Assembly: GCF_000004075.3 (NCBI RefSeq)
Contig: NC_026660.2
Span: forward strand, 25,609,498-25,673,497
Source of the DNA: Cucumis sativus
Lineage: Eukaryota; Streptophyta; Magnoliopsida; Cucurbitales; Cucurbitaceae
Direction of reading: 5' to 3'
Length of the DNA stretch: 64,000 nucleotides
In this document: one piece after another, positions 4,298 to 61,490 of the stretch
Position numbering within the stretch: the stretch's first letter is position 1
Layout: the number at the start of each line of letters is the position of its first letter
The notes under the pieces: model-generated
What the model was told of the DNA's origin: nothing
What the model saw: only the letters and a program-made list of their open reading frames with translations
Database searches by the model: none
Program-made: the position numbers and the translations under genes

Positions 4298-5230
4298 ATG
4301 AAACCCAATTCCAACAACACCAGGCTCATTCTCCTTCATCCTTACATCCAAAAACAGGGCACTTCCTCCAAGATATGGCTTCTTGCCTTCCTCTCCTTCT
4401 TCACTCTCGCCTTCCTCCTCCTCCTCCTCCTTGTCTACACTCGTGCCTCCACTACTCCCATCACTGCCGCCTCTTCCCTTGTCTCATCCTCTCCCTCCTC
4501 CCCATCTTCCTCCGCCACCCCTCTCCCCACCACCGTCATCAACACCCTTCTCTACTACGCTTCCAAATCCAACGACTCCTTCCATATGACCCACTCCGAG
4601 CTCAAACCCATCTCCGACGTCCTCCGAAAATGCTCAACTCCTTGTAATTTCCTCATCTTCGGCCTCACTCAAGAAACCCTTCTCTGGAAATCCCTCAACC
4701 ACAACGGCCGTACCGTTTTCATCGACGAGAATCGCTACTACGCCGCTTTCATTGAAGAGAAACACCCCGAAATCGACGCCTACGACGTCCAATACACCAC
4801 CAAAATAAGCGAATTGAACGAACTGATTACGACGGTTAGAGAGCAGATACGAAACGAGTGCCGTCCAGTACAGAATCTTTTATTCTCCGAGTGCAGGTTG
4901 GGACTGAATGACCTTCCAAACCACGTGTATGACGTTGACTGGGACGTGATCTTAGTGGATGGGCCACGTGGGGATTGGCCCGACGCGCCGGGAAGAATGT
5001 CGGCGATCTACACGGCGGGGGTCCTGGCGAGGAGTAAAAAAGGAGGGAACCCGAAAACGCACATTTTCGTGCATGATTATTACGGGGAAGTGGAGAAGGT
5101 TTGCAGTGATGAGTTTCTGTGTAGCGAAAATTTGGTGGAAGCAAGTCATACGCTTGGGCATTATGTGGTTGAGAAGATGGATGAGAATTGTTTTCAATTT
5201 TGTCATAATACGACGGCGTTCAGATCCTAG
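4298..5230 (+). CDS. IRX15-L: IRX15/IRX15-LIKE DUF579 xylan biosynthesis protein
   Basis: Single-exon gene of 310 residues. The short basic N-terminus contains LILLHPYIQKQ-like residues typical of IRX15, then one membrane anchor at about 26-47, a Ser/Thr/Pro-rich stem to about 75, and the DUF579 domain. Diagnostic stretches are PCNFLIFGLTQETLLWKSLN, GRTVFIDENRYYAA, HVYDVDWDVILVDGPRGD and KTHIFVHDYYGEVEKVC. The family consists of Golgi type II proteins needed for normal glucuronoxylan in secondary walls. The related GXM proteins methylate glucuronic acid on xylan; for IRX15 itself the biochemical activity is less clear. The first ATG fits the family N-terminus. A second xylan gene (GT43) lies 12 kb downstream on the same strand. 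Confidence 0.95.
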   Translation: MKPNSNNTRLILLHPYIQKQGTSSKIWLLAFLSFFTLAFLLLLLLVYTRASTTPITAASSLVSSSPSSPSSSATPLPTTVINTLLYYASKSNDSFHMTHSELKPISDVLRKCSTPCNFLIFGLTQETLLWKSLNHNGRTVFIDENRYYAAFIEEKHPEIDAYDVQYTTKISELNELITTVREQIRNECRPVQNLLFSECRLGLNDLPNHVYDVDWDVILVDGPRGDWPDAPGRMSAIYTAGVLARSKKGGNPKTHIFVHDYYGEVEKVCSDEFLCSENLVEASHTLGHYVVEKMDENCFQFCHNTTAFRS

Positions 5231-8200
5231 CTGTTTATCTCTATGCCAATAAGAAGAAGACGGTGTTCTTTTTTCCTTTAAGTAGTGATTCATGAAGTTG
5301 GAAAAGGGTATGGGATATAGATCTAAAACATGTTTGTGTATTTTTATTTATGTTGTTATGAACAACAATATCTCGTTTTCATTATTGTTTATTTTCAAAG
5401 TAGGTCTTCTTTTTGGAAATTTTGGAATTGGGGTTGGACGTTCGAGCATTGGAGCATTGGGGACTTGTAAAAAATAATTCTTTCTTCAATTGCAAAACAA
5501 GAGTTTCAATCGCTTTTTATGTCTTCTTATTTTACTACAAAAATCACTTCTTCTTTTCGTATACTTTTGAACTGTTCACATAAAATGTATATTAATATAT
5601 TTGTAATTAATTATAAAATAACAATCAATTAGCTCCAACAACTTAGGAGAGGAAATCTCACGTTAATATGTAATAAATACATATTTACATTTATTGAATC
5701 TGAGTATAACACTTACAATGCCACTGAGCTTTTTTAAAAAAAATAATAATAACAATAATAAATGTGCAGTGATGCTAATGTCACTGTTGATGTATAGTTT
5801 GCAATAGTTGTATTAGCATTTAGTCATTATTTTACCATTCTTTTCATTTTACTAATTTTTTTTAGAAATAGTTTTATTTATACAGGTGTAATCTACATTA
5901 ATATATACATCCACCATTTCCTGTTTTCATCCTTTGAATTTATAAATTACACTAATTTGGATATGAAAATTAATATTCAAACTTGGGTGTCATATTTAAT
6001 ATCTTTTTATATTTATTACATATATTATAAATGAAGTATGATAAGTTATCAAACTAATTCATAATTTAGGGTTAAGAAATGCTTGGATGTCTGAATTTTA
6101 ACCTTTAAATGTAAGCAATAATTCAGTTTCTTAATTGTAGTTTATACGTTTAAATTTTTAATAACTTACCACTTTAAATAAACGGCACAGGATGAAAAGT
6201 GGCAGTGATCAACCGTGGCTAACGGACAAGCTGAGGATGATTGAAGATGGTGAAATAGGATTTAGGGGTGAGAATTATGTCGACTATCCAAATTAAATTA
6301 TACGGGTTTGAGTTTAGTTATTTTAAAATATGAGTTGTTTTGAGTTTTTTTAAGTCGAGTTTGATTTTGGATTAAGATTCGAAGAATTCAACTAAAACCT
6401 AACTCAAATTCATTATATTATATATAATCATAATTATATTAAGTTTTATAATATGATTAATTATATTAAGTTTTATAATATGATATCTCCAATGTTTTTT
6501 TATTTTAGAAATTTGATTTCTTATTTGACTCTTTATAGGTAATTCTAGATGTGGTGTTAAATATTATTTTACTAATGAAATGTTTTTGGATATGTGTATT
6601 TATGGATATGATGTCATGATGGTTTTAAAATTTAACAAATATTAGAAGTAGGAAAAAATTATACAACTCATTAACCTCAATATAGGTTGAGTGGGAAATA
6701 TTGTTAGAGTGATTCCAATTGTCAATCCAACGAATCCAATGGATTGATTCCAAAATACATCTCAACCAAGGCGTTTATACCCTTAAGAGGACTTGCACAT
6801 GAAGACATATGAGAAAATAAAATAACTATATTTTTTTTTTTGGAAAAACAGGCTTCACTTTCATATTTAATAACATTTTTAAAAACTAATAATAGTAATA
6901 ACCATCAATTATTCTTCTTCCTTCTCGTATTTTCCAAACCCTAATCACCTCTATTAATAATTAATTATTTTTATTAAAAAAACTCGAAGTCAAATAGTTA
7001 ATTAATTCCAATTAATTACGGAAAAATTACATGAAATTATGGGTTGTTACAAATTACAACTCTTAATTGTTAATTTAGCACTTAAAACACCCAGTATTTA
7101 AAAGAAATTGTTTAGGTTTTTAATTAATTCTATATTAATCCATAACTTACTCAAAGAATAAGCAAGAGTATAATTCACATTCATTTGGTGAGAATTAACA
7201 ATCAAATGCTAAAACATTTGAAAACATATCCATATTCTTTTTTAATGGACATTCATTATCCAAAAAGTAAATTAGAAGCAATTTTATCAAAACTTAACTA
7301 TAGCCGACAATTACATCCAATTTTCAACATTAAATATCATTTTTTTGTTGCATATAACAAATTATATTATACATATCAATGGATCTAATCCATCCATGAT
7401 AAATAATAAAAGTTTGAAAAAGTAACACCACTCAACAAATAAAAACAACAAATTTTTGTAGAAAATTATCAATATGACCAAAGAAAAGTTGTTGGATAGT
7501 TAATTGAATGGTATTTGGATTAGAAACCAATCCACTAACTTGAGATCAAACCATTTGTTTTTAAAAGAACAAAACTTCAAAATCATGGAATAGGAAAAAG
7601 TTTGGTTGATATAATAATTGAGGTGAAGACAAAAATGTAAAAGACCTAGAGGGAGAGACAGAATCATTTGACTTGGTATATAAATAATTGATTCCAATGG
7701 GAAACTTTGAATCGATTGTAGTACAGAAATAGAATTTTATGTTGGGGTAATTCATTCCGCACATTATCATTTACATTCAAATCATACTAACTTTTCACCC
7801 AATTCCTCATAATACATATCCAAATTATCTTTGTTTCAAACATAAGACAAACTAATATCAAAATCATATCATCAATTTTAGTATTTTTCTTTTTTCACAA
7901 ACAAGATGTATATTAAAATACCGCTCTACCCTTCATATATCTAAACTTGTAATTGAATCCATTAGACTCACGTAATTTATTTTATTATTTTTTACAGTCA
8001 TTCCCTATAGATACATTTGTAATATTGGAATTTTGATATTCAATTTTTTTTCTTTTAAGTTTAAGTTTCTCCAAATGCCACTTAGGAAAAAGGAAATTAA
8101 ATTAAAGTGTATCAAGCCAATAAGGCAAAATATTTGTGCAATAGCTCTACAACAATAATTTGTGCAATCTTCCCTGCCTCTGTATCTTCTATCATTTGGA

Positions 8201-10141: not shown

Positions 10142-11204
<1,063 letters not shown>

Positions 11205-17346: not shown

Positions 17347-20300
17347 ATGAAGCTTTCTGCATTGCAGCAGACTTATGCTGCCCGTCGGGCTAATAGCTTC
17401 AGAGGATCGCCGTTGGATTCGTCTGCTGATAGTCCAATCAAGTCGCCGGCCGGGATTTTCTGGTTGATTCTTCATGGACTTTGTTGCCTCATCAGTCTTG
17501 TACTGGGATTTCGCTTCTCCCGTCTTGTGTTTTTTCTTTTCTTCTCTACTTCAACCACTACTAACCTTTACTTGACTCCCTTTCGATCTGCCACTGACCT
17601 GAATGTTCACTCTACTTCCCTGTCAAATCCGACTGTAAATCTTGAAATTCCGGTGAATAAGACGACGCATACGACCATTGCTGCTTCGAGTAGCCGTGTG
17701 GTGGTTGGGAGGCATGGGATCCGAATCCGGCCGTGGCCGCATCCAAACCCTACTGAAGTTATGAAGGCTCACCAGATTATTGAGACGGTGCAGAGGGAAC
17801 AGAGGCGTCAATTTGGGGTCAAGAATCCTCGAAAGATAATTGCTATAACGCCAACTTATGTGCGGACGTTCCAGGCGCTTCACATGACTGGTGTTATGCA
17901 CTCGCTGATGTTGGTCCCTTACGAACTTGTCTGGATCGTGGTGGAGGCCGGTGGAATCACCAACGAGACTGCTTCAGTTCTTGCCAAGTCTGGGCTGGAG
18001 ACTATCCACGTTGGGTTCAATCAGCGGATGCCAACTTCTTGGGAGGGTAGGCACCGAATGGAGGCTCAGATGAGGCTCCATGCCTTGAGGTTATTTCTCC
18101 ATACCTGCCTTTTTTATTGCCTGCTTCTTGTTTGATGAATTAAGAAGGTAGTTAGGTGATCCTGTTTCTTTCTAAACAAAGCTGAGTGCTCGAGTACGAT
18201 TTGACTGTATATGATTTAGTTAGTAAGCTATTAATTGCGGGGCAAAAAAGGTGAAAAGATCAAGATTGTGCATGATGAAGATATTGTATTTCATACTCCA
18301 TTTTCTCTTTATATGGCTGAATAATTTAGGTTGCTTTTAGATCATGAATTTGATTATATAGGTATGAAATGATGCAGAATTGTGAGCAAAATGATGCTGG
18401 ATGGAATCGTGACGTTCGTGGATGACAGTAACATGCACAGTATGGAGTTCTTTGACGAGATCCAGAACGTGAAATGGTTTGGAGCTCTGTCTGTCGGAAT
18501 TATTGTTCAGTCTGATAAACAAGATGAATCATCAGACGAGATGGAGAACCCACCAATTCCTGCACAGGGTCCTGCTTGCAATTCTTCCAATAAATTGGTT
18601 GGTTGGCACACCTTCAATGCGCTTCCATACGCTGGAAAAAGTGCTAAATTCATTGGTGACAAGACATCAGTTCTTCCGAGGAAGCTTGAGTGGTGTGGGT
18701 TTGTGTTGAATTCCAAGTTGCTATGGAAAGATGCAGAAGATAAGCCAGAATGGGTCAATGAGTTTGATACATTGGAGGTTGGTGATGATGCTTTAGAGAG
18801 TCCACTATTTCTTTTGAAGGATGCATCCATGGTTGAGCCGCTTGGAAGTTGTGGCCGCCAAGTTTTACTCTGGTGGCTCAGAGTTGAAGCTCGTTTTGAT
18901 AGCAAATTTCCTCATGGGTTAGTATCATCTTTAATTTGATGCCTTCCTCCCTATTACATATATGAAATTCATCAATCCGATAGATATATCACTAAAAATG
19001 AAACGAAACAATATGCAACTTTTAGGTCAATTTGTTTCGAATGTGTTTTGAAATTTTAATCACATGACAACACCTAATTTAATGTTGAGGTTGTGCAGTC
19101 CGATCTGATGATCATTTAATTTAATGTGTTTTCTAGCCTCTAAAGATGTCTTGTTTACCTATACTTGGATCATGATTTAAAATCTAAAGTTGTTTGCATA
19201 CTGGTGAAGACGCGGTTCAAATACCTTTTTTTTTTCTATATAGATTTGATGTTTTATCTATGCTGTATCTCTAATTTTAGCTTCTGCATGTTTTTACTAT
19301 GAAGATTGCAATTGTTGCGTGCGTATTTAAATAAATAAATGGCTAAATTACATTAATATTTATTGAGCCAATAGATTCTCGTGATAGGTGGTTGATATGT
19401 GCTTTCTGTTTGATACAATTGTTAGTGATACTATAAGTATATGCCACTACTTCTGTATATCAATGATGCAGTTCCGCCATTTTTGCCTTCTCATTTTCTT
19501 GTACTGATTTCCAAAATTAAATTTACAGAAGTATTTTCAAAACTTTGTATACCATTTATTAACAGGATATTAACTTTTTTTTAGATGTTCATATTATATT
19601 ATATAAATTTCTCACTAATGTAAGATTGATTTTCTTGATTTAAAATAGTGTACAAATTTACTAGTCAGTAAGGTTATGTAATACTGTAACGGGAAAATAA
19701 GATGATTTTGTTACTATATTTAGTAAGCGTACCATTTTTCAACTGAAATTATTTCTGTTGCGGACAAAATTTCTTTTTCTCAAACTATTATTTCATTGTT
19801 CCTCATAGGCGTAGGTTATTCTCGTTTCTAAGTTACCATAACCTCTGGTCTGAGATGGCCCTAGTGTTGGAAGAAACCATGGATAATCTCATAGATTTTT
19901 TGTCGTTCTATTGAAGACAAGAACTATTGGCTCCTCCTCTTGTAAATCGTACAGATTGGGTTCGTATTCATTCAAATTTTGGGCCACTTAACATGCTACT
20001 CTCAAAACGGTGGTAAGATTAGGGTCACCGTCTTCCACCAAGAAATTCTTTTTGCTTAGTAAATATTTTCTTCCTATTTTGCCCTCTCTCTTTCCATTTT
20101 GACTTTTGACGACCGTTCTGAACGCCTATTAGATTTTAGAACCAAAACCATAACCGCTTTTATAATCTTGCCTTTATCTTTTCCAAGAAGGATTGATCAA
20201 CTTAATGGCCAGATTCTGGTACCTAATTACATTTTCTCCCATTTTTCTTATTTTTCTTATTTTGCCTATTTTCCTTCTTTTTTTTCATTTTCTCTTTCGT

Positions 20301-21542
20301 CATTTATATGTCTATTTCTATTTAGCATTTTAGACTTCTATTCTTTTTAGGTACAACCTCTAGAAACGAAGTTTATGCCAATTACCAACTAAGAACATTT
20401 TGGTCCATAAACACCTCTTTCAACATTCTATCCTAGCCATGCTATGGTGCCACTTTAAGATGTTTTCAGTCTGTGCTGTCTTTTAGTAACTTAGTAAGAA
20501 GTCCCTTCAGACTTCTGCTTTTCTTTCTGGCAAATTATATGTACAAAATGTAAAACAATAGTACAAGAACCGTCTTATTTCTAGGAGACTCCGAAGCTCA
20601 TAGGACTCATAGTCTATTTTTCAACAGTCAAGGATTAAGGATGCCAGTTTACAATTTTTGGAGCAGTCTTTAGTCTCTAGGAAGCTAGGGTCGTAGGAAT
20701 TTCCAATGCAAAGTTTCCGTTTGCCCTTTTTCGACTACGCCCCTGTGAGATATTTTGACTTGCTTCCAAGCTTCCCCCAATGTTTTAACGACTTGGATGC
20801 TTACCCATCTACTTAAATGACCTGTAGATAGTTTCTTTGTTCTGTTCTCACAAAAATGTCAGTCTTAAAGTGATAGTTCTGTCTGTATGCGCTTTGACTG
20901 TGAAATGTGCTGATCCCTTACTGTCTGGCGGCATCCTAATCCGCATTGATCTACCTTGTTTCATGTTCATTTTCACTATACTCTGAATCCATCTTCGCTA
21001 TAATTGAGCTGGTACAAAAAAACATCCATGGTATTAAGGAAAGGTCAGGGTAATCCGTGGGTAATTTATATATTATTTATTCTGGCATCACCCACTTCGT
21101 TTCTGTGTTTGCATTTGCATTTGCATGTGTGCCTATGATATCTTCTTCACATGGGTTGTTTTTTATTCCTTGGATTTTTAAGTTAATAGTATTGTTGGCC
21201 ATTTCACGAGGAATGTTTGATCCTCCTTAGACAACCTTCGTTTACCCTCGATCTTGAATGTAGCTTTTACATTCACTTAATGCTTCCACTTTCATTTCAT
21301 ACAGGTGGTTGATTGACCCTCCTTTGGAGATTACTGTGCCTGCAAAACGAACACCGTGGCCGGATGTTCCTCCCGAACTCCCTACTAACGAAAAAGCTCA
21401 GACAGACAATCATGAGGAAACGACTAAGCTTCCTGCAAAGTCTCATTCATCCAGATCCAGAAGAAGTTCTCGAAGCAAGAGAAAGCGTCACGAACCGAAA
21501 GTGGTCGACACTCAAACTTCAGTGAGACATTCTGAGAACTAA
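17347..21542 (+). CDS. IRX14: IRX14-type GT43 xylan xylosyltransferase
   Basis: Three exons, 17347-18089, 18378-18917 and 21305-21542, encode 506 residues. The protein begins MKLSALQQ with the RRANSFR motif seen in IRX14. It has one hydrophobic anchor at roughly 36-67 and a luminal GT43 domain: SSRVVVGRHGIRIRPWPHPNP, TPTYVRTFQALHMTGVMHSL, VWIVVEAGG, a DDS motif at 263-265, QGPACNS and SCGRQVLLWWLRVEAR. A Lys/Arg/Ser-rich tail follows. IRX14 acts in the Golgi with IRX9 and IRX10 in the xylan synthase complex and is needed for backbone elongation. Both introns split codons and keep frame; the second is 2.4 kb. An in-frame upstream TTG is ignored because the first ATG matches the family start. 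Confidence 0.96.
18918..21304 (+). other. Large intron 2 of IRX14 with a non-AT-rich core
   Basis: Intron of 2387 bases with GT donor (GTTAGT) and CAG acceptor. The segment around 19800-20780 has balanced base composition and fragmentary coding-like character unlike the AT-rich flanks. This suggests a decayed element inserted in the intron. I cannot name its family and no ends are evident. Confidence 0.4.
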
Positions 21543-24584: not shown

Positions 24585-27570
<2,986 letters not shown>

Positions 27571-38786: not shown

Positions 38787-41700
38787 TTACCTTTTCTTTC
38801 CTTTTCTCTTTTTGCTATCCTTCTTCACAATGGTGATAGCTTTACGCAGGATACTAAGTTCATAATCCTTCCTTCTCAATTCTTCCTTCAGGCTCTCAAC
38901 CTCATTCAAGTGATCACAACAGTGATTCGAGTCCTCCTTTTGTTTCAATTCTTGCTTCAATCTTTCAACCTCCTCCACATGGTTGCAGCATCTACTCGAG
39001 TTTGAAATTGTCTCAATTTCCATTTTATTTGCAGTCTTCTGCTTTTTGGACATGACTATGTTTTCAATCACCTCCAGATCTCTCTTCTTAGATGAGAAGT
39101 TGTCCATAAAGTCCTTTTGTCCCATTTTCCGAACATAGATACTGACAATGGATCCTGAATGTTGAAATCTGATGAGCTTTTGAGGTCGTCCAGATGAGTC
39201 CTGATTGAATTGCAGGATTGGAGAATTTAATCAGTAAAACCAAGCAGGAAAGTAACTAACAACTATCCTAAAATTCTCCCAAGGACAATCGATTACCCAG
39301 TATTGAAATATGACTAACTAATTTGGTGAGGGAATGGCATAGTATTGAGAGAAATGTGTCAGTATTATATGGGAATACAGACAGCATTACTAATGAAGAA
39401 AATAAATAACTTCTCACAAAAAATGGAGAATGTGTATTCAATATTACCTCATATGCGTTACCTTCAACCTCTTCAAATGCTTGCAGTGCCTCCTTGGGAT
39501 TCTGGAAAATGGCAAGTGCAGAGTATATATCCCCCCCTTGACCTTTCTTAGGTGGCTGTTGGAAAATCAATCGTCAAAAAATAAAACTCATTGGCAAAAG
39601 GTCGTAGGTGGAGAAGAATATAGGCATTGCATAATGGATAACTTGTTTAAACTATAGTAGCTAGACTATTACAGAATTGTGAAACCAAAAACACTACGCT
39701 TTACTAGTTAAACTGTTCGGTCCAGTTACTAGTAAAGTTTATCTTAAAAAGAGTTAATCTGTCAAGTGCTAATCCGACCAGCCGTTAGGTAATAGTTTCC
39801 GATGGCAATCCGACCCTAGCCATTTCACTTTCTTAATCCACAACAAATCCATTCAATAAGCAGTCAACAAATGTGTACAGGATCCTAAACCTGTACATTA
39901 ATCCACGTGCATTATATTTTCATGGTATTCATCTTACAAATTACATCAGAATTATTGACTATGTATATGTCGTGGAGATTATCACAAAAATATTAATTTA
40001 AAGCATATCCACGGATTGTATATTGAAATGGAACAGAACAAAGCCAACCTTAAGTTCAATGGTAAAGTCACCATGAATAGCCTTAGCCAATGCTTCACTT
40101 GGTACATTAATCGGTATGCGATGAAGTAGTAGCTTCTCCATACCAACTTGAGGTGTCTGCAATATTTATAGAAAATCAATATTGATATATGAGCACGTAC
40201 AGCATATACTCTACTGTGATTATATTGGAAAATCTCTGTTCTTACATCCTCATCAACTATAGCAATTCCATCATCAGCTTTGCTCTCCAGTTTCGCAAGA
40301 ACAAGTTTCATGGCAGCCTGAGCATCATCCAGACAATTATGAGGAGCACCCTCCTTCCGAAGGTCATAGCCCAAGACAGACTGTCAAAAGGTCAAAAAAG
40401 AAGAAGACGGGCATCTATAAGACAAATGCTCTGCAGTTGGGCAAGTAAAAGCCCTCGCAGGAAGAAGAAGCTACTCTGTCCATGAGTGAAATAGCATGAA
40501 CTATAGCAAGCGTGTATCTTAAACATACCTTACACAGCTTACTCAAAGAAGGCCTTCTATAGATAGAACCATTGGAATACTTGAAGATAAATGAAGTGTC
40601 AATCACCCTCGAGTGATCTAATTTCAGTGCTGAAGCAATAAAAGAACAAAGGGGATAAAAAAATGTCATATGGACTTCCTTTAGTTATCGTATATTTTAT
40701 CATATCCATGTGATCTTTTAATATTTTTATATAAAATTGAATGTGAATAAATTTACAAATTTTACATATAAAATAAAATGGTAATTCAATTTTACATCAT
40801 TAAATTTTATGTAAAAATCTTACTTTTTGGTATAAATAACTTTCTACCAGGCAAAAAAGGAAAAAGAAAAGGATGAGGGTTAAAAATGTACAATTTTGTC
40901 ACTGATTTACGTTATCCTAATCTTGTAAAAATTCTTTTTTTTCCCTTTATACATTAAGCTTTTTACTGTCAATAAACATTAAAAGAATGATGACATGAAA
41001 AACTTGAGATAGTATCCTTATACTAAGGCGGCCAGTCATCCATATAATAAAATATAGTAAGGCAACCAAGTTTGAGTTGGGTAAGTATTACGAAACTAAA
41101 TTACATTTCGTAGACATCTTCCACTAAATTGAACAAGACATAACTATAGTACAATTAATAGAATATAGTTTACATCAGAATATTCAATTAATAAATAAAT
41201 TAACATGTTTACGCGAATTAAGAAGTTGATTAAAAAACATGAAACGTGAACTTTGATGAAACAGAAAATAAAAATATGGCCCACGACAAATTTGAGGGAA
41301 AACCAATAAGGATATCATTATTAGATTACCTTGCAGATCATTGTTCAGACTGTGGCCTACCAAAATAGTTCTTCCATGTGAAAGGAATTTTGTAATGGAT
41401 TTCTGCAATTTGAACAAAGAATATCCGATCGTGTATGTTGAAGGAAGAGTAAACCATCCACATAAGAAATAAACTACAATTACCTGTACATCAGCCAAAG
41501 AACAAGAAACTCCATCCAAATCCCCAGGAGAAATTCCAGTTATATCAGTTCTATAGTCCTTAATAGCTTTTCTAGGTTTCACAAGTTCATCAATTTTCAC
41601 CTGCAGGTTAGATGGGGACTCGTAAAAGGTCTGAGAAAAGCTATGACATCATATATAAATTGGTATACTGATGGAACCATTGTTTTTCAACATACGTGTA

Positions 41701-43244
41701 TGTGTAAAGGGAGATGTAAATAGAAGCTATAAGAAGACATAGAGGTCAAGAACATACTTGTAAGTCACGATCCACCATGCAAACCCTCACCAAGTTCTCA
41801 GTTCCATCTTCACAGAGAACCATCTCACAGTCGATGGCATAGATCAAATTTGAATTCGGCCCTTTAGACTTTTGGCTGAATTTTGTAACAACCCATTCCT
41901 TCAAAATCAAACCCACAAGTCAACACAAATTCACAGAAAAATAGCCAACCACTTGGTCAAAATATAAAACATCGCATATCAAAATGGAAATTTTTTTGGA
42001 GTCTATTAACAAAACAAGAAAAAAGAAACACGGAAAAATCAAAACAACAGCAGAAGTTGACATCCTCTACCTTATCATATGACGGGAATGAATATTCCAA
42101 TGGGTACTGAGGGTGTTCAAGTGTAAGTCGAACCAGCTTCTGCAATGCCACAAACATTGGTTAAAAATGCCAGAGAATAAAAAAAGGATATTAAAGAATG
42201 GAAAACAGACAGATACAAAGTTGAAATTAACTAGGATAAGGTGATGGTAGTGAGGAAGCAATCGGTTTGCATAATTATTACTGGAATAATCAGATCAAAT
42301 GCAATCAATAAGCTCAACAATCATCCGAGACAAACAGATTATGGTTTCATTTATACATCTGAAAGAGCTCAAGCTCTAAAATCATCAACCACAAATTTTG
42401 TGCATGGTAAAAGTAGCATGGTTAGGAAAAGAAAAATAGCTGATAAGTAAAACATTCAAAGGAAGTCATGCAATGGAGAAACAAGTTAACTAATTTCAGA
42501 AAAAAGATTGCAATGGGCAGATAAAAGTAACAAAGTTAGAAAAAATCGTCACTGCAATATTGACCCTCCACCAAAAAAAAAAATTAATAATCTCACCTGC
42601 TCGGGTGATTCATTTTCTGGAGTTATCTGCGATACTTGCTTCACAAAATTGCGCTTCTCGTTACACTGGAATACTTTATCCAAAAACTGATGAAGAAAAA
42701 ACATTCACGTGATTTATGTCACTCTTAGTTTAGTGAATCACAACGAGAAGATAACACAAATTCCCAATGGCCTTTGTGGTAGACAGAGAGACAATGACTC
42801 ATTACCATCAAATCCTCCTCTTTATCAAATGTCTTGAGAAAAGCAATCAACAAATCATTGGGCCTCTTAGATGGGTCGCTCATGCTAGCCCCGAACTTAG
42901 GGTCACGACTATTAAGAAACTCCTTCCAGTCTCCTTCACTACCTGTCATTCCTCGCTTTTGGGTCAACCGCACCATCTCAACAAGCACCTACAAAGAAAG
43001 ACGATGGGGCAAAAAGCTTTACATACAAATTTAAACCGCTTCCACTAATATTTCTTAGATTGTTTTGTTCAACCAACAGAAGCACCAAGACCGTCTAACA
43101 TTTTGACGGATTCCGTGTCTAAAAGCAACAAAATACTAAGCATACACTTGGCGAACCAATCGAGTAACGACATAAATACGATAAAGATAGTTTCAAAAAC
43201 AGGGAGAGTACCTTCTTCTCTGCTGTAGCGATCTTGTCCTCCAT
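38787..43244 (-). CDS. SDN3: SDN3-like small RNA degrading nuclease (DEDDh 3'-5' exonuclease)
   Basis: Twelve coding exons on the minus strand: 43244-43212, 42988-42806, 42686-42597, 42139-42071, 41898-41758, 41600-41484, 41402-41330, 40629-40529, 40380-40246, 40156-40049, 39555-39448 and 39200-38787. They give 523 residues. The start MEDKIATAEKKVLVEMV matches the SDN family. The exonuclease core has D148 and E150 (AIDCEMV), D233 (GHSLNNDL), H283 and D288 (HNCLDD). An RRM-like segment follows (KLLLHRIPINVPSEAL to about 410), then a coiled-coil tail with two 23-residue Cys-Cys-X-His repeats and a Lys-rich end. SDN enzymes trim single-stranded small RNAs, including methylated miRNAs. The 700-base intron 7 and other introns show only AT-rich sequence. 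Confidence 0.94.
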
Positions 43245-44087
43245 TGGAAAGACCGCCGGAATTCTAAGTAGGAGTGGAACTGAGAAAAGATTAGAGAAGC
43301 GAGGATTGGAAAAGTGGCTGCTTTCCCGCTGCGGAGTTTGTGTATGACTGCGAGAAAATCTGTTGAGAACGAAGAAGTAACCGGAATTAGGGTCGGGTTT
43401 TCGGGTTGAGTAAACGTAAACCTAAATATGATTATTTTTCTATAAAAAGAAAAAAAAATTAAGTTATTTTATATAAAAATTGCATTAGATAAAAAACAAA
43501 TAGGTAGTAACTTCTTCTTCATAATCCAAATTTGATAAATATAATATCCGATAATAATATACTTTTAAATTTGCTATTTTTACCGCTTAAAAAATGTTAG
43601 ATGATATAAATTTTATTATTATAAATTTAATAATTTTTTTTGAAATTATTATAAATTCTGTGTTTAGTTTTCATTTAATATTTCTTAACTTCTCAAAATT
43701 TTAAATGGAACCCTCTGATTTTAGGAGATTTCGATTCAGTTTATAATTTCTTGTTTTCATTTTAATTTATCCTATACAATTTTACAAGTTTATTATAAAA
43801 AATGAATCTTGTTTTAAGTTGAACAAAATATTTAAAATTTTATGTTTTTAAATATGAAAGCTAATTGTAAATTAATTACTTTGTCTATAGATTCAAAACA
43901 TATGAACTCCCATTTTGAATGATTATAGCAGGTTTATGAACCATTCTTGTTAAAATAAAATAAATAATGATTATGGCTAAATCTCTAAAATAGATATTGT
44001 GATACTCTAAGTTTAATAAGTAATTGAATAAATGATTTAATCGTAGTTCAATTACTTAAGTCAAATAATCGAATATTTATTCTCACG

Positions 44088-44135
44088 ATATTATTTAATA
44101 TAGAACACAAAATATTATTTAATATAGAACACAAA
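44088..44135. repeat. 24-bp tandem duplication
   Basis: Two perfect adjacent copies of a 24-base unit starting ATATTATTTAATATAG, in AT-rich DNA. Probably slippage. Confidence 0.85.
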
Positions 44136-47100
44136 AATGATACCAACTAGTTTTATTTATTAATTTGTGAGTTGTTCTAGATTGGTTTGAGTTGATTTCA
44201 ATACAACTTTTTATTTGTTATTTTAATCAAAGCTATAAGATTGTTTTATTTTATTTTTCTAAAAGGAAAAAAAAAATCCAACCCTATAATTGATAAGGCC
44301 ATCTATACTTGGCCCATTTTGCACAAACAAAACGCGTGGACGTCCATTGATTGACCCAATTTCGAAGTTTTGAGGTTTCGAAATCGGCCCACAATTTCCC
44401 ATAAACAAAAGACTTATGTGCATTGGGTTAAAGTACATTTGTCTCCATATTTCGAGTTTGGTTCCCCTTTTAATTTTTATATTTTTTTAAATATCTAATT
44501 CATAACTTTTTTTTTCATACTACAAATATAATAAATAGGACAAGTAATTAGATACATAAAAAAAACTATTAGATGACTCTTCGCTTTTAAATTTTAAATT
44601 TGTTATTTTTATTATTTAGGAAATGTAATACATGAATTCTATTATTATAAGTTTTTTTACTATTTAGTTAAGTACCTCTATATTAACTTTTATAAGTAAA
44701 AAATTGACTAAATAATAACAAAAACTTTGCAAAATAATATATAAAATGCATAAATATTTAAATATTAGATAAAAAATATCAATAATCGAAACAACATCGG
44801 TGTTTTGAGTGGTGTATAGTTTATTATAAATTTGATGAGTATAATTTGGAAGATGGTAGAATTTAGAGTGGGTAGTTTTAGAAACTAACATTTAATTATT
44901 ATAAATGGATATAACCTCGTAAACAATATATATGGATGGTATAAATGATATAACGTTAGTTTTTGAAACCATAAGAAGAAGATGAAAAATATATAGAATT
45001 GATTAAAAAGAAAAGAAAAAAGAAAAAGGTGATACATATAAGGTAAACATTGGGGGAGGAGAATGGTTAATTCGGGCACTTGGTCGCTTTTGGTATGAGG
45101 TGACAGCAAAGAGTATTTAATGGGGAGGGTAAGAAAATTAATTTCATATATTTTTTTGGGGAAGGTACAGAGAGGTAGGGTGTATAGTAGGGGAGAGGAT
45201 TAGAGGTTGAGGGGGAGAGGTAGAGACAGACATCAGAGAAAGCCGTACGCCGTCTGAGTTCAGCCGACAAGACGCCACATTTATTATTCACATTTTTATT
45301 ATTATTATTTTGCTTTCTCTATCGAAGAAGAACCGTATCTCTTCCCTTAACTATCATTGTCCCTTATTAGTTTTTCATTATCCCTTTTCTTCTCCTGCTT
45401 TTAATTTAAAATCACTTTCACCTTATTTAATCTTTTTCTTTTTACGTTACTCAAACTACACTACATCTACTACCTTCTACTTTCCAATGACGTTCTTTAT
45501 TATTCTACGTATTTTGGTGGGTTTAAGATTATGATTGTGTAACTTTACATCCTACCTTCGCAAACTACTTCTATTCCCCCCTCAATGCTTCACCAAACAA
45601 ACTATGACTAATCTTCAATCCGTTTTTTGACATCCCTTATGAAATTGTAATGCAATGTCTCACATTTAGATCAACTATTTTTAGTTTAAATTATAATATT
45701 AAACACGTTTCATTTTAACAGTTTTCAATTAAATTCTATTTTTCATTATTTTTACTTTTTACCATTATATTTTTATTATGTCGTCAGTGCAATCTCTCCT
45801 CGCTTGTATCATTTTGGTAAAATTAACAAATTGGAATACTAAGATATAGTAATTGGCTAGACAAAATGGTTCTATAAAGTTTTTAAATTTTTATTTTTCT
45901 AATGTTGGACCATTTACAGTTTAGTGGTTAAAACACTGTGACTAATTTTGCTTATCACTTTGATAACTAACTTTATTAATCATCCCTAATATCTGATTTG
46001 ATTGTGTTTCACTTTTAGATTATCATATTTGATGAACGTTAGTGCTACAGAACTTAGGTGATACTATTGTGACTCACCTTTAACTTTAATTTTGACCCTA
46101 GCTTATGACGTTACCAACTCATAATGTTTAAAAAAATATAGTTTATTACATAATAATTTAACATTCGTAGAAACACTCTGAGTATATAGCAAATCAAACA
46201 AAATTACTTTTTTAGTTAAACTCGTACTCAGATTTTGAAAGAGGTAAATCAAATAGTAATGGACAAAATTGTGTCTTTTTTCCTTTCTTTTATTTCTCAA
46301 AACAAACATAGAGTAAATAAATCAAAATAGAAATGGATAAAGAAATAGTGGGTTACTTCTTAAACGGTGAGGTCCTCTCTATACACCGGAGCTCCTTCTT
46401 TTATTTCATCAATGTTATTGTTAACTTGTACAGGTCACCCTCTTTGGCTCTACCCATGAATTATCTCTTCTGCATGTCCATGAAGTTTTGAAAAATCCAA
46501 ACATCTCAGGGATAAATAGAGAGGTAGAAATTTATCGAACAAACCGCACTCCTTCGTATACGTCGGGAGTCCATTGATGAGAAGGGGTTGGGGAAAGCTT
46601 GAACCCAATTCCTACGGTGATGAATATAAGCGCAATTGCTTAAAAAATAAGATGGGTGAAACTAAATAAATACTAGCAAGATTGCACGGTTAAAATTGAG
46701 TTGAACTATAGGAAATAAAGAGTCCAAATTAAATTTGTTTTCTTTTGAGTGGATATATATTTCAATCATTTAAGATATGCGTAATTATGAAATAATTTAT
46801 ATAGTTGACAAAGTATTAAATGTAAAATAATATGCACGGGACGAACACAAATTATTATAATTTCTATCAATAAAGTTTTTAGACAATTCTAAAATTGAAA
46901 ATCGTTTGTATCTAAACATACTAGGTGAGGTTCCTTCTTTTATCTATGTGTCTTATGGCTGTGGAGTTCCTTGTTCCACCTACGTGTCTCTCATGGTTGT
47001 GGCCATATAGGATACTCACCCGGACTGGTGGGTCGCAAGCTAAAATCCAACTCTGATTCGCTATCCATCCTTTACAATTACATTCAAACATTTCCCCTAA

Positions 47101-49726
47101 AACCTCCCCCATTTCTTCTTATTTTTCCTTCTATTTCTTACCCATATATTTTCATTGCCCCACACTATCTTTGCCTCTTTTGTTTTCTTGCTCTTCTTTC
47201 TCAATTCCCATCTTCCATCATTCCTGCCAATTAAATACTATTTTATGTTAAATTATTTTCTTTTATTCAAAAAAAAATTATGTTAATTTATAATGGAGTT
47301 TGTTTTATTTCCAAAATTTTCTTCACAATCTTCAAACTTGTGTAACATTCCCTAACATTCAAAGATTATTTGGAGTAACATTTAACGTTCTTTCAAAAAA
47401 CTTATTCTATCATGGTTGGTTTTACATGTTAATCCATTTTCTTTTCATACTATTCACTTAAAAGTTGTAGCATTTTATATAGTTAGAATTTGGAGGTTTA
47501 TTTATTTATTTTTGTAAACTTACGTAGTTTTGCAGTAAAGAGAGAGACGACCTTGTTGTCCAAGGTATTGACACAATCAAAACACCATCATAAACGATGA
47601 AAAAAATAAAACACCTATGATTGATTTTAAGACATTACAGTCTTATTAATTTCTGACACTGTTAGCTTTGTGATAAATCTCCACATTTCTCAAAATAATT
47701 TTTAAGTTCACAACCATGTTCCCTGTCTTGCATGCCTTTTTACGATTTTCATGTTCCTAAAAAATAAAGATGAAATATATGGACACTCCATTTAAATGCT
47801 TGAATATAAATATATATATTTAGAGATTTTTTTTTTTTTTTGGTAAAATGACAACTTGTGAAGTTGTGATTAGGTGCATACAAAATACACTAACACAAGT
47901 ATTTAAATACATATATATATTAATAACAACTTTAATTATATATCATATGTTAACAATGGCGTACAAATATTGAACAACACAAGCTATTTGTAAACCACTT
48001 GCTCTGATACTATATTAAATCATCAATCGTTTTAAAATGTTAAATTAGTAGATGAAGACAAATTTAATTAATATATAATTAGATTCGTGGTTGGATGAAA
48101 GAACTTTTGTTTGAGTATTTAAAAAAATTATTTATTTGTTGATGTATGGTAGGCTACTATGGTTAAGTACGGAATGAATGGAGAAGAACGTTATTTTCTT
48201 ATAAATACATATGCTAAAATTTCCCCCAAAATAATGTTAAAAGCGTAAAAGAGTCGTAATTTTTTATGGCTAAAAAAAAAAAATTTAGCGTTGAATTTAA
48301 AAATGGATGAAAGTAAGGACGAAAAAAGAAGGGGACAGCTGAAAGAAAGATGACGATGACATGTAAAACAATAAAAAAGACAAACATTTAAGGAGAGAGT
48401 GCAATATAGTTTTGGTGTGTATGGTGTTAGTCACATTTAAGTAAAATATGTTTTCCCCTTCCCACGGTTATTCTTTTTTTAGAAGTTGCTACACCAAAAT
48501 GAATTATCAAATTATTTCATTCCATTCACAAAATTTCATCTTACAAAATGAATGATATATATTATCAAATATCATCTTTTTTATTTTTTCCTCCACAAAT
48601 TTCTGCATTTGACATTCCAAATATTGTTTTCCTCCTTTCAGTCGTGGTTACTAAATTTAATTTTCTCACAGACTAACAACAAAACAATAACAAAATCAAT
48701 TAATCTTCCTATTCCACAAAATTTTCCCGTTTTAATTTACTTCTCGTGATGTTTTTCTTTTTCTTTTCCATGTAGAAACCGATGGTTGATTTTTATGGTA
48801 CTTAAAAAAAATCAAAATTAAATGCATATTCTCTTTAATTGAAATAACGTAAGATGTAATTTTAACTCATTGATTTAAGGTGTGTGGTTGGATAGAGAAA
48901 GCTCATCTTCTAAAAATGATTTTTAAGGGGATGATGAGTTTAGATTCATTGACATGTTTTTTTTTTTTCTCTAAAGCTTCATCTATCACAATAATTATCT
49001 ATTAAAAGATTTTTTTTTGTATAGTTTGTTTACTAAAAGAAAAAATCTTTTACAATTTATTATTGTGTTGACCTTGGAGAATGGCCACGACAAAAAATAT
49101 AGACTTTACTTCATTTAATTTTTGTATCTATACGTGTACACTCATTTTCTTTTTGTATGAATTTAATGTTAAAAGTCTATTGGAGTTATTTGAAAACAAA
49201 TTTCAAACATTAAAATTAAAACGAATTTTTTATATGCAGTTAAAATGAACTCACAATTTATGAATTTTCTTTCAAAATATTGAGTTTGATTTTTTTGTTT
49301 AAGTATAAATATAAAAAAAAATCAAATTTATTAGAGAAATATTGTAGTCTTAGACATCCCATTTCAAGACATAACTTTTTAAACAAATAATTCAAATAAT
49401 TACTGAGATCGAGTATATCATTTGTTTAAAATAAATAAATAAATGACCTGCATCCAAGGTACTATTCTTTCTTTCTCAACATACCTACTATAAATTCTAA
49501 ATTTATTAAAATTGGAAGTTGGATACAAACTAGAGAGAAAAAAGTTGAATGTTACGTGTTTCTTTTATTTGAATGTTACGTATTTTACAGACATCTTTTT
49601 TTGAAACAATGTTTTTTATAAAGAAATTGAGATAAAACAATCATTACCTAATACGAGATAAAAATAGAGTTATTTCACTTGTAGTGATTTGCTTCTTTTC
49701 AGTTACAAAATTTTGAAATAGGAAAT

Positions 49727-49786
49727 CTTTGATTGCTTCTTAAAAGCTAGTTCAAACTTTGATTGCTTCTTAAAAGCTAGTTCAAA
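49727..49786. repeat. 30-bp perfect tandem duplication
   Basis: Two identical adjacent copies of a 30-base unit starting CTTTGATTGCTTCTTAAAAG. Perfect identity suggests a recent event. Confidence 0.9.
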
Positions 49787-50621
49787 TGGAAATATGAGTT
49801 TATTATTTGTTTGTTGTTAATGAGTGAATTTCAAACATGTTTCGCTTAATTGTCATTAACTTAAAAACCTTCAATATTTTGAAACATGTGTATCAAGCGT
49901 ACCACTTAAACTAGACTTGTTTTTTTTTTCTCGTATTTGTAAAATTGAAAAACCTTGGAATGAACTTGTAAATTCCTAAATTCAAATTGTCACCCACTAC
50001 AGATTCTCTTTCTCTTTCAAAAACAAGCTAGAGCTTCTTTAGTGCATGACAAGGGGAGAGGTTGTTTTATCCCCCATTCCCTCTTTGTCTCTTTAGTGGG
50101 GATAAGAGTTATGGTTTTGTTGAAAGTGATTGTGCTATTGGTTAGTTGTTGAATGAAAAAAAAGAAACCAAAAGTCTAAGTTTCACTCCTTTTTAATTTT
50201 CACCATTTAACTAAATTCCATGTTTTATTTTATATTTTATAAGTTTTGAAGTTAACTAAATGTACAAGGTCTCTCCAATAAATTTGAAAACTTGTATATT
50301 TTTATAAGAAACTTTCACACTTCAAATACTTTTTAAAAAAACCACAGTTTAAGAGTATAGTTGATAATTTAACTAAGAAATTCATTAGGGTAGGAAGGCA
50401 ATGCATTTGTATTTTATTTTTTTGAAATATAGGAAACAAACGTTTAAGCTATAACAAAAAATTAAAGGAAGAAAGTATATATATTAATGTAATATATATA
50501 TGAATGAAAAAATGTGAAAAAGAAAAAGAAAAAAAGAGTGAAAAAGGGAAATAAAGAAAATTGGAGGCATCCCTTGGGTTCACTCGAGTACTGTGCAGTC
50601 TACCGTTACGTTTCATTATCC

Positions 50622-50629
50622 GCGCCAAA
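50622..50629 (-). promoter_or_regulatory. E2F consensus site upstream of CYCD3
   Basis: The plus strand reads GCGCCAAA within CGCGCCAAAC, so the minus strand is TTTGGCGCG, an exact match to the TTTSSCGC E2F consensus. It lies about 430 bases before the CYCD3 ATG in otherwise AT-rich DNA. E2F control is established for plant S-phase genes and, as I recall, reported for an Arabidopsis CYCD3. Confidence 0.6.
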
Positions 50630-50951
50630 CTCCAAAAAGTATTTTCTTTGTTTTTTTCCTTTTCTTTCGTTTTTTAATATGGATTTCTCTTATTTTATAA
50701 ATTATAAATATTAAAAAAAGTTATCGAGGAAAGAAAGCCAAAATCCCACAAAGAAAATAAATAAATTTTTTTCTAAAAAAAAAAAAAAAAAAAAAAGTGA
50801 AAAGACGACAGGCGTGCAACCTTCTCGGCATAGAACCTCTTTGTTTCTTAGCTTCATTCTGGGAACTGTCCCTATTCCTCTTTCATCTCTCAATCCTTTT
50901 TCCCTGTAACGGACACTCTCTCCTCTTCCTATTCCTCTTCTTCCTCCTCCT

Positions 50952-51017
50952 ATGGATGTGCCTTTGACCACTCCCCTTTTCTCCTTTCTTCTTCTCCACA
51001 TTCCACATTTCAAATGA
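50952..51017 (+). promoter_or_regulatory. uORF (21 codons) in the CYCD3 leader
   Basis: The ATG opens a frame beginning MDVPLTTPLFSFLLL and ends TGA 39 bases before the cyclin ATG. A second upstream ATG at 50957 in another frame stops after three codons. If included in the transcript, these would limit cyclin translation and make it depend on reinitiation. Confidence 0.5.
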
Positions 51018-51056: not shown

Positions 51057-52443
51057 ATGGCTCTCCACGATGAACCTCAAGTTCACGACATTCAAACCAC
51101 CCACTCCTTTCTCCTTGATGCTCTTTTCTGCGAAGAACTTTGTTGCCATGAAGATTTGCCTGTTAATGCTTCTGATGACGATACTCAGTACTGGGAAACT
51201 CTCAGAAAAGACCAGCCTTTTCTCGCTTTTAATTTTCTGGAAAACGACCCTCTTTGGGCGGATAACCAACTCCACTCTCTGATTTCAAAAGAAGAGCAAA
51301 CCCAAGTTTCTTATGCTTCTATGACCTCTGACGACTATCTAATTGAAGCCCGGAATGAGGCTTTATCTTGGATTTTTAGAGTCAAACACCACTACGCTTT
51401 CTCTGTTTTAACCTCCCTTCTTGCTGTTAACTACTTCGATAGATTCGTTTCCAATGTGAGGTTTCAGAGGGATAAACCATGGATGAGTCAGCTTGCAGCT
51501 GTTGCTTGCCTCTCGCTGGCTGCCAAAGTGGAGGAGACCCAAGTTCCCCTTCTTCTTGACCTTCAAGTATGTTTGAATTCTTCACCGATAAATACCACCT
51601 TCCAAGTATTTGATAAAATGCTGCACTAAAATTACTTTCTTCCTCCTTTGCTCTTTTAAGTTTAGACCCATGTTAAAACTCGGCATCGTTGTACTTGTAT
51701 TATGTTTTAGGTGGTGGAATCCAAGTTTGTATTTGAAGCCAAGACCATCCAAAGAATGGAGCTACTGGTGTTGTCTGCCCTTCAATGGAAGATGCATCCA
51801 GTAACCCCCATTTCCTTCTTTCATCACATTATCAGGAGGTTACCTTTGAAGAATGACATGCTTTGGGAACTTCTTGGGAGGTTTCAGAACCATCTCCTTT
51901 CTATCATAGCTGGTAAATGGCTTAAGATTTCTTATTTCTGTGCTTATTTATGTTAGCACGTAAATGTTCCATGATCAAACAATTGGGTTCTTAATATCAT
52001 TAGTTTTTTCGATGCCAGATCATAGATTCTTGTGCTACCTGCCTTCTATCTTGGCCTCTGCAACAATATTGTATACCATCAGTGAGATTGCGCCATATAA
52101 TTTCTTGGAGTACCAGAATGAGTTCCTCAGTGTACTTAAAATTAATAAGGTATTGATAAATGTCTGAACATTTCTATTCTCTGATAATTTATATTGTTTT
52201 TAGATCTTAGTCTTTTGCCTGATCCTTGCCAGCTGAAACTTCTTTATATGTTTACAGAATCGTCTAGATGAATGCTACAAATTCATCCTTGATTCTCTGG
52301 GCAGTCATGACAGTTTGCAAAATCTAAGTGACCAAAGCCAGCAATTGTGTGAACTGGGCAGCCCATGCGATGTATTGGATGGATACTTCATATCCGACTC
52401 CTCGAACGATTCATGGCCAATGGTACCATCTATCTCACCCTAG
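51057..52443 (+). CDS. CYCD3: D3-type cyclin
   Basis: Four exons, 51057-51566, 51711-51912, 52019-52149 and 52258-52443, encode 342 residues. The retinoblastoma-binding LxCxE motif is LFCEE at 23-27. The cyclin box follows: ARNEALSWIFRVKHHYAFSV, LLAVNYFDRFVS, PWMSQLAAVACLSLAAKVEE, then VFEAKTIQRMELLVLSALQW. The C-terminal cyclin fold includes HRFLCYLPSILASATILYTI. D3 cyclins partner CDKA to phosphorylate RBR and drive G1/S, with roles in cytokinin-responsive division. The tail stops at SWPMVPSISP, shorter than the roughly 360-376 residues usual for Arabidopsis CYCD3, lacking the final Ser/Pro/Arg-rich segment. Convergent with the ARF gene. Confidence 0.95.
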
Positions 52444-54185: not shown

Positions 54186-57622
<3,437 letters not shown>

Positions 57623-59315
57623 TTAGTAGGTCATAAGCGGTGACCCACTGCAATGAACATCAGAAGCATCAGATGTCCTCTGCCTTGGAGACAAACTTGT
57701 TATGCCAGCAACATCTACATCGAAATTGATAATACTCTTTCTCTTCTGGGTTTCTAAACCTAGTTTCTCATCAGAAACTTCAGCGATTGGACTCAAAAGA
57801 TTGATTGGTTCGTTACGTTGACCAGACACCATAGCTTGAGCTTCTGCCACAACTGATGCATCATCATCTATAGCATATAGTATCTTCCTTATAGCTCCTA
57901 CAACCTGACACAAAACGAAATGGAAATGCTCAACTCAATGGGCTTGAAATTCTAGAGGACCAAATAAAATGGTTAGAAAATAAGAGAATTTCTGGAAAAA
58001 GTACAGGCAAATTGTCAATCTCTGGACTCTGGCAGAGTATCTCAATATCCCTTAGCTTTGCAAAGTAGAAATCCCTCTCTTTCTCAAGGCTGTCGATTGA
58101 CAGTTTCAATGTTGTGATCTGCATTTGACATTAGTAAGTCTATATATATATCCTCTCCACTATTCATCACAATCTAAGAAATTCACTCAGTTTCAGAAAA
58201 TACCTGTTCATCATATGCAGTCAATCCTCCATTTGATGAAGGTTTTGAAGCATTCGCTGCCTGATTTCCAGAGTTCACTGATGCCTCATTTCTCCGAGCA
58301 TTCTGAGAGACCTGAGCCCTAGATGTAGCACCCGTTGAACCTTTTGCAGAAGAATGTGATGTGGTGCTCTTTTTGCTAGCGTCCTTTCCTCCCTTGGATG
58401 CTTCTCTCCTTTCCAAAGCATTATAACTAACAAGAAAACCAAAAATTGAACTGTCAACATATTGTAGTGTACTTTGACAATCCAATAACTTCTTTACGAT
58501 CATCAATTTCCAAACATTGATGTTGATCATTGTGAAATTATATTGTTCAAATCATAAAATATTTGCAGGTTAGATCCAATAGGGTGATTTAGACATTATT
58601 GAGAGTAAAAAGCAGTATGTTTATAACAAACCAATAATGGTAACTGAGTTAAAAGTAGACAAGATTACCTTTGAAAAACACCTCCATTAGCAGAATCACA
58701 ATAACGTTTCATCCACTGCATGAACTCCAGATTATCGAGAGGCCTTCCTTTCACAAGCTTACTCACCTCGATATGCTACAACATTTCGAAGAAACCAGTA
58801 ACTAAATATAGATCAAGTGCACAAAAAAATACACAGAACGCAATAGAAAACTCCAATCAGCAACATTTCTTAAAGAAAAAAGATTAACCTATGAAGTTTA
58901 AAGGAGCGGACTATTAAAAAAAGATACCTTGGTGATTTTTAATTTGTTGAAGACATCTTGGAGAACCTTATAATTCTGGATCATTTCGTATTCGCTCTTC
59001 GCGTCAAAGTTGACCTTGTGCATTGGAACCATCCCAGGGTGAGCCGCATCCATCAATTGGCAATGAACCGCACCCGAGCATGCCTACAATTCAAGAATCC
59101 ATGAAAAGAGTAATCGTAATAAGGGTTAAACAAAGAAAATTTCAAAAATCTTGGAACAAGTAAGAATGAAAGAAAAAAGGATCGATATTAGGGGTGCTGG
59201 GAGAAACCTCCTCGACTTTGGAAAGATTAAGGTGAAGAGTGGAGTTGATCCAGGCGAGGATCTCCGATCTCCCAACGAAATAAGCAGAATCCATCATCCC
59301 AATGTTTGTTGCCAT
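57623..59315 (-). CDS. EB1C: Microtubule end-binding protein EB1C
   Basis: Six exons on the minus strand, 59315-59208, 59083-58928, 58775-58669, 58426-58204, 58118-58005 and 57904-57623, give 329 residues, the length I recall for Arabidopsis EB1C. The calponin-homology domain starts [20 protein letters not shown] and includes [20 protein letters not shown] and [21 protein letters not shown] Ser/Ala/Lys-rich linker follows. The EB-homology coiled coil starts near 199 ([20 protein letters not shown]). The tail has [14 protein letters not shown] and ends [14 protein letters not shown]; this basic tail, in place of the acidic EEY-like end, defines EB1C and carries its nuclear signal. EB1C acts on spindle and phragmoplast microtubules. 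MSA-like cores lie in its promoter. Confidence 0.96.
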
Positions 59316-59519: not shown

Positions 59520-59524
59520 AACGG
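59520..59524 (+). promoter_or_regulatory. Second AACGG core upstream of EB1C
   Basis: GGAACGGCC lies about 205 bases upstream of the start codon, in the same orientation as the site at 59433. It matches the consensus less well outside the core. Confidence 0.35.
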
Positions 59525-60117: not shown

Positions 60118-61490
60118 TCAACGGTTTCTTCCTCGTCCGACGAACCTGGCGGGGCTAAACCGATTAAGATCAACAATTGCGGATTCTCCATCCAAAATAA
60201 GCTCAGCCATGGCTGCACCAGTTGCAGGCCCATTCAAAATTCCCCAACAACTGTGTCCTGTCGCCACATAACACTCACTCACCCCCGGGAGCTTCCCGAT
60301 CACCGGCAAGTCATCATCCGTACACGGCAAGAAGCAAGCCTGCTCCGCTTTCAATTCCGCCTCTCCTTCCCCCAATCGACTTGATACAGTCTTCGCCACT
60401 CTCTTTAGAACGCTTATCGATTCTGGATTGGGCGTTATCTCCTCTGGATCCTCCGGCACTTCTTCCACCGCTGACATCCCGCACAAATACACCTCCCCTG
60501 CCCACCAACATCAATCCCATTTACAATCAAAATCAGAATCCCACAAAAAAAAACTGTAATTAAAATTCGAAAGTAGAAAACAAGCTCACCTGTAGGACGA
60601 GGATACATCTCTGGGTCTATTGGCCTTCCACCCTGAGCCGGATAGTAACCTAGAAACAGAGCATGTGGAGTTATGGCTTCCGGCTCTTTAGGTTCCAAAA
60701 CTATACTGTGTGCTTTCAGGCCATACACTCTGAACAGTGATGATAGCGCCTCAAACTTCCCCGACCATGGTCCCAACGCAAGAACAACCGCATCGGCGCT
60801 AATTACTTGGCCGTCCTCCAGCATCGCCGATTGAAATCTGCCACCCTCCAACGTTAGCTTCTCCAATTTCCCGATCACAACCTCCACGCCGTACTTTTCC
60901 ATTGCATTGGATAGAAGGGTCCGAGTGAAGTGCTGTGGGTGAACTTGTGCCGTTGTTTCGGTGTTTCCGATCGTTCTCGTATTCTGAACTGGACCGTCGA
61001 CCCAGGAAGGCACGACGGAATCGCCGGTGGATTTGGAGGAGGTAGAGGGAGTGGGAGGTTTCTGCGATTCCGAAATCGTAAGGCTGAGAGTGTCTAGGGC
61101 TCTATATCCGTACGATTTAGGGCCATCTAGCTCCTGTGAGAGCGAGCGGTGGAGATTAAAGCTGGCGCGAGCGAGGGCGGATATAGGTCCACCATCGCAC
61201 CAATCATAGGCAAGGAAGCCGCCGGCCTTGCCCGAGGCGGCGCATGCGATGGCAGATTTCTCGACGAGAGTAACTGCCGCCCCGTTCTTAGCTAAGAAGT
61301 AAGCGGTGCAGACTCCGATCACTCCACCACCGCAAACCACGACTTTTCTAGTTTCCTGGGGAGTATCCATGGACACCGGCGATGTTACCGGAGATGAGGA
61401 GGATCGAATCAATGTGAGGGTGGAAGCTCTAGAGTTTGGGATGTAACGAAGGATGGGAGAGAACGACGAAACCGGCAGTGTCCCTGCCAT
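60118..61490 (-). CDS. FAD-dependent oxidoreductase, TDA3-like (DAO family)
   Basis: Two exons on the minus strand, 61490-60590 and 60497-60118, encode 426 residues. A Ser/Arg-rich N-terminal segment of about 40 residues could be an organelle transit peptide; an internal ATG (MDTPQ, residue 41) would give a shorter cytosolic form. The dinucleotide fold KVVVCGGGVIGVCTAYFLA has GGGVIG at 54-59, followed by VTLVEK. Later motifs are KAGGFLAYDWCDG, AQVHPQHFTRTL, DAVVLALGPWSG and, near the end, LPVIGKLPG with YVATGHSCWGILNGPATGAA. These fit the DAO-type oxidoreductase fold and the yeast Tda3-like branch present as one gene in plants. Substrate is unknown. The frame is open upstream to 61679 through a poly-Lys stretch, which I reject as leader. 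Confidence 0.92.

Follow-up and report, generated by a model that had tools for sequence, protein, structure and literature searches.

In Arabidopsis, published gene numbers place IRX15-L at At5g67210, IRX14-L at At5g67230, IRX15 at At3g50220 and IRX14 at At4g36890 (PMC5881139), CYCD3;2 at At5g67260 and CYCD3;3 at At3g50070 (PMC10407606), and PTEN2a and PTEN2b at At3g19420 and At3g50110, respectively (PMC6719168). Further, At5g67270 is listed in a paper on EB1c (PMC4700127) and At3g19400 in papers on cysteine proteases (PMC3253073, PMC4243279). We analyzed a 64,000-nt stretch of plant DNA (hereafter the window), in which one block of genes, spanning positions 4298–61550, contains members of the same families. 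A preliminary description had named seven genes in this block (IRX15-L, IRX14, PTEN2, SDN3, CYCD3, EB1C and an FAD oxidoreductase) and had regarded it as the union of copies that were fractionated in Arabidopsis. Our results indicate that the block is very probably a conserved collinear neighbourhood dating from an early eudicot, which was kept mostly whole here and was thinned by duplication and gene loss in Arabidopsis.

The window is AT-rich (GC content of 27–38% in 4-kb bins), with intron-bearing genes. Gene models were obtained using a simple splice-aware predictor written for the purpose, followed by splice joining around hand-picked peptide anchors. Families were called using Pfam, to which only part of the protein was submitted for several models, and exon edges are approximate in the protease, WRKY, ADP-ribosylation factor (ARF) and SDN models. 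Each of the eleven models was assigned to a family by Pfam and PDB matches; all seven named genes were recovered, together with four more. The models lie in the following order (values are Pfam E-values).

4298–5230, + strand: IRX15/IRX15-L/GXM-family gene (IRX15-type), 1 exon, 310 aa; PF21729 IRX15_IRX15L_GXM, 2.7e-81
10142–11204, − strand: group IId-type WRKY gene carrying a plant zinc cluster, 3 exons, 294 aa; WRKY, 1.1e-27; Plant_zn_clust, 3.7e-19
17347–21542, + strand: GT43 gene (IRX14-type), 3 exons; GT43 on exons 1 and 2 (exon 2, 1.5e-29)
24585–27570, + strand: papain-like cysteine protease; Peptidase_C1, 1.7e-87, and I29; top PDB match Triticain alpha
29051–30655, + strand: DUF247 gene, 1 exon, 534 aa; DUF247, 1.4e-136
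33954–37762, + strand: PTEN2-type phosphatase, 11 exons modelled, motif HCKAGMARTG; PTEN2_C2, 1.4e-70
38790–43244, − strand: SDN-type exonuclease; RNase_T, 5e-11; top PDB match Arabidopsis SDN1
51057–52443, + strand: D-type cyclin, 4 exons, 342 aa; Cyclin_N, 4.2e-27; Cyclin_C, 6.6e-13
54226–56290, − strand: ARF small GTPase, 5 exons, one edge set by hand; Arf, 6.7e-80
57623–59315, − strand: EB1-family microtubule end-binding protein, 6 exons; EB1, 5.7e-17; CH, 1.8e-10
60118–61550, − strand: FAD-dependent oxidoreductase of the DAO family, 2 exons; DAO on exon 1, 1.1e-28

Pfam fixes the family only, and the finer names IRX14, CYCD3, EB1C and RD21-like are putative for the window genes.

When published codes were compared with the window, the order on Arabidopsis chromosome 5 (At5g67210–At5g67290) was the same at all three anchors (IRX15-L, IRX14-L and CYCD3;2), and at four of four when EB1C was included from the listing. 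On chromosome 3 (At3g50070–At3g50220), CYCD3;3, PTEN2b and IRX15 followed the window order in reverse, again at three of three anchors. For the two SDN genes (SDN1 and SDN3), the DUF247 cluster, the FAD gene and the F-box genes, the Arabidopsis codes used are presumed. Presumably, the chromosome 5 segment also contains SDN3 and the FAD gene and, unlike the window, a tRNA-dihydrouridine synthase, SKIP2 and a receptor kinase, and the chromosome 3 segment also contains SDN1 and an expanded DUF247 cluster. The former is not known to contain WRKY, protease, DUF247, PTEN2 or ARF genes, nor the latter IRX14, EB1C or the FAD gene. When listed and presumed codes were added, the order agreed at six of six anchors on chromosome 5 and at five of five, reversed, on chromosome 3. 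For these anchor sets, which include presumed codes, the odds of matching the window order, forward or reversed, are 2/720 with six anchors and 2/120 with five. PTEN2b is on chromosome 3, IRX14-L is on chromosome 5, and IRX15 and CYCD3 types are on both, the absences on each side being presumed. The preliminary description left out At4g36890 (IRX14 itself) and an F-box gene presumed to be located between SDN and CYCD3 in Arabidopsis, of which no trace was found in the window (see below).

The grouping exceeds chance expectation in a simulation in which we placed the 11 families, with assumed copy numbers, at random over 27,400 positions in 20,000 trials, ignoring tandem clustering. When copy numbers were set generously for whole families (192 genes), at most five families fell within a run of nine genes, in a single trial of the 20,000; a narrower set (83 genes) gave at most four, again in a single trial. 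In an earlier run, from which ARF was absent and in which one single-copy entry was unlabelled, the maximum was three. At5g67210–At5g67290 is claimed to hold six families compared with the random maximum of five; among these six, the codes of three are published, that of EB1C comes from a listing, and the remaining two, for SDN3 and the FAD gene, are presumed.

Gene numbers of poplar, grape and tomato were picked in advance and then looked up in papers, and the comparison therefore concerns chosen places at the family level and not a genome-wide scan of best hits. In poplar, the IRX15/IRX15L subgroup includes Potri.005G141300 and Potri.007G047000 and, elsewhere, Potri.001G302600 and Potri.009G098800 (PMC3921138). 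IRX14-1 and IRX14-2 are Potri.005G141500 and Potri.007G047500 (PMC6770981), and Potri.005G141400 and Potri.007G047400 are WRKY genes, for which the passage gives no WRKY group (PMC6358917). Further, Potri.005G141900 is a homologue of CYCD3;2/CYCD3;3 (PMC10407606). Thus, the trio of IRX15-type, WRKY and IRX14 genes occurs in window order in both poplar copies (Potri.005G1413–1419 and Potri.007G0470–0475), and CYCD3 is close by on 005.

In grape, VIT_18s0001g10030 is called VvWRKY7 in one table and WRKY22 in another, VIT_18s0001g09990 is a cysteine protease called SAG12, VIT_18s0001g09920 belongs to a set of five named VvCYCDs (a second member, VIT_18s0001g07220, is also on chromosome 18), and VIT_18s0001g09850 is a MYB gene. 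WRKY, protease and D cyclin thus follow the window order at the family level along chromosome 18 (VIT_18s0001g09850–10030), with the MYB gene beyond the cyclin and with subtypes that are either unstated or in conflict. In tomato, SlCycD3;3 (Solyc04g078470) and an RD21a-type protease matched to At1g47128 (Solyc04g078540) are seven numbering steps apart, and Solyc04g078550 is listed in a paper on pepper WRKY genes (PMC5171846). Six further CycD3 genes of tomato are on chromosomes 1, 2 and 12, five of them on chromosomes 1 and 2. Among these, SlCycD3;2 (Solyc12g088650) is separated by two numbering steps from a code listed in work on immune proteases of tomato, Solyc12g088670 (PMC5014320), and the two are perhaps a second tomato copy (further sources: PMC7415184, PMC11172563, PMC7449092, PMC9227488, PMC7916130, PMC3907801, PMC8073981, PMC9145247, PMC7517658).

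For some members of the window, there is thus agreement with gene numbers published for Arabidopsis, poplar, grape and tomato. The preliminary description had held that scatter of the members over unrelated chromosomes would speak against a common block; at the chosen places, four members are linked in poplar, three plus the MYB gene in grape and two in tomato, these being places picked in advance and not best hits. The proposed union of fractionated Arabidopsis copies is partly supported, in that the order agrees with the chromosome 5 and chromosome 3 pieces, with codes that are partly presumed, and parts of the block are linked in the three other species.

The grouping could alternatively have arisen or grown by rearrangement in the window's own lineage, the dispersed state of Arabidopsis being the older one. 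In favour of this, no outgroup location was found for at least seven of the 11 members, and ARF had no comparator at all. However, the order agrees with two Arabidopsis segments, and pairs or trios recur in poplar, grape and tomato; because repeated independent regathering into one order is very unlikely, we consider this origin highly improbable.

The preliminary description had attributed the presence of WRKY and ARF to later insertion into the ancestral block or to loss elsewhere. Neither gene is known to have a partner in the chromosome 5 or chromosome 3 pieces of Arabidopsis, no comparator was found for ARF, and the WRKY matches elsewhere are at the family level only. In contrast, both poplar copies have a WRKY gene between their IRX15-type and IRX14 genes, and grape VIT_18s0001g10030 is near a D cyclin and a cysteine protease. 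We therefore rejected the insertion of WRKY, and consider it unlikely that both genes are later insertions. Given the matching slot in the two poplar copies and the neighbours of the grape gene, WRKY was probably an original member of the block. The protease was probably an original member as well, and the At3g19400–At3g19420 pair of protease and PTEN2a is therefore a plausible further fragment. As for ARF, we leave its membership of the ancestral block undecided.

The pair of IRX15-type and IRX14-type genes is linked in the window, on Arabidopsis chromosome 5 and in both poplar copies, as would be expected if selection on linkage maintained the neighbourhood, for instance because the xylan genes IRX15-L and IRX14 are co-regulated. 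However, Arabidopsis IRX15 (At3g50220) and IRX14 (At4g36890) are on different chromosomes, and such linkage is therefore not required. Further, the families are mixed, a pathway is common to the IRX15-type and IRX14-type genes only, and the remaining members have no evident pathway in common. We therefore rejected a functional cluster as the principal explanation, and regard selection on linkage as having very little likelihood. There is similarly little chance that the IRX15-L/WRKY/IRX14 trio was kept linked by selection as a neighbourhood for xylan biosynthesis, in which WRKY would act as a local regulator that was lost from it in Arabidopsis.

The conserved eudicot block, fractionated in Arabidopsis, remains our preferred explanation; the orthology of each member, the duplications involved and the ancestral state are inferences that go beyond the gene content and order shown here. 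The alpha and beta whole-genome duplications of the Arabidopsis lineage would have copied the ancestral segment, and each copy would then have lost genes. The surviving fragments would be those on chromosome 5 (67.2), chromosome 3 (50.1), probably chromosome 3 (19.4) and, for IRX14, chromosome 4 (36.9), while the lineage of the window would have retained most members on a single segment. The best Arabidopsis hits of Potri.005G134600, Potri.005G147100, Potri.007G029200 and Potri.007G008200 are At4g37180, At4g37790, At4g36710 and At4g37790, respectively (PMC6770981). Because these poplar genes are tens to hundreds of numbering steps away, the chromosome 4 region of IRX14 (At4g36890) is only hinted at as a further fragment.

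Several points weigh against this interpretation. At the family level, the outgroups cover four of the 11 genes in poplar, three in grape and two in tomato, at places picked in advance and compared by gene numbers. Homologues also occur elsewhere (the two poplar IRX15-subgroup genes on 001 and 009, four grape CYCDs and six tomato CycD3 genes), and labels conflict: the grape WRKY gene is WRKY7 or WRKY22, the grape protease is called SAG12, and the tomato protease is matched to At1g47128 and not to At3g19400. The Arabidopsis codes of SDN1 and SDN3, of the FAD and F-box genes and of the DUF247 cluster are presumed.

In the open-access literature, we found no paper naming at least three of IRX15, IRX14, CYCD3, PTEN2, SDN3 and EB1C, and the block may well be listed in synteny databases. 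The block is real but ordinary, a case of textbook plant genome evolution that alters no concept. It offers a clean example of fractionation, in which one plant segment reconciles several thinned segments of Arabidopsis, and the probable presence of WRKY and of the protease in the ancestral set would help in naming positional orthologues.

Details of individual models were as follows. The SDN model, in which exon 1 was joined by hand and the last exons are approximate, matched Arabidopsis SDN1 (PDB 5z9x) with an E-value of 6.1e-94 across 315 residues. No granulin domain was found in the protease model, the exon edges of which are approximate. The 294-aa WRKY model was picked out of eight fitting splice variants (285–296 aa). 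It shares its length and its 2 introns with cucumber CsWRKY51 (CsaV3_6G043450, group IId, 294 aa), which is at most a weak hint of a cucurbit: the model was chosen post hoc, with six of the seven group IId entries compared, variants of 285–296 aa fit, and CsWRKY15 has 293 aa. The cucumber CYCD3 gene Csa3G199660 is, judging by its number, on chromosome 3. At 55345–55482, a 69-nt unit occurs twice in tandem (96% identical), abutting exon 2 of the ARF gene (modelled at 55277–55347) at its 5' edge. Because the tandem overlaps exon 2 by 3 nt, the unit may carry the splice acceptor of this exon.

The gap between the SDN and CYCD3 genes (43300–51000) comprises nearly 8 kb without a gene model. We assume that an F-box gene is located between SDN and CYCD3 in both Arabidopsis copies. 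As regards a long-frame remnant of this gene, no stop-to-stop frame of at least 110 aa touched 41,649–50,710. Further, all 52 segments of at least 48 aa in 42.9–51 kb were below the Pfam cut-off; five of them gave chance-level matches, none to an F-box or leucine-rich repeat family. The F-box gene would have been either lost in the lineage of the window or gained in the Arabidopsis line before its last duplication. Among five segments outside the gap, three had only Pfam matches below the cut-off and two had none; among five extra segments, one (38790–39230) had only matches below the cut-off and four had none.

A tRNA scan and an Rfam scan at the gathering score gave no hits in the window. 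Repeats of at least 40 nt in the whole window comprised five direct families and two inverted pairs, mostly AT-rich. Among these, no pair resembling long terminal repeats and marking an element was seen in 43.3–51 kb, where one direct copy and one inverted arm were located. Upstream of IRX15-L, in a region free of gene models, a 44-nt stretch occurs at 1477–1520 and 3176–3219 (89% identical), and translation of the two copies can give similar short peptides. Two-copy tandem repeats with 100% matches were also found outside the gene models, at 49727–49786 (30 nt), 6431–6484 (27 nt) and 44088–44136 (24 nt).

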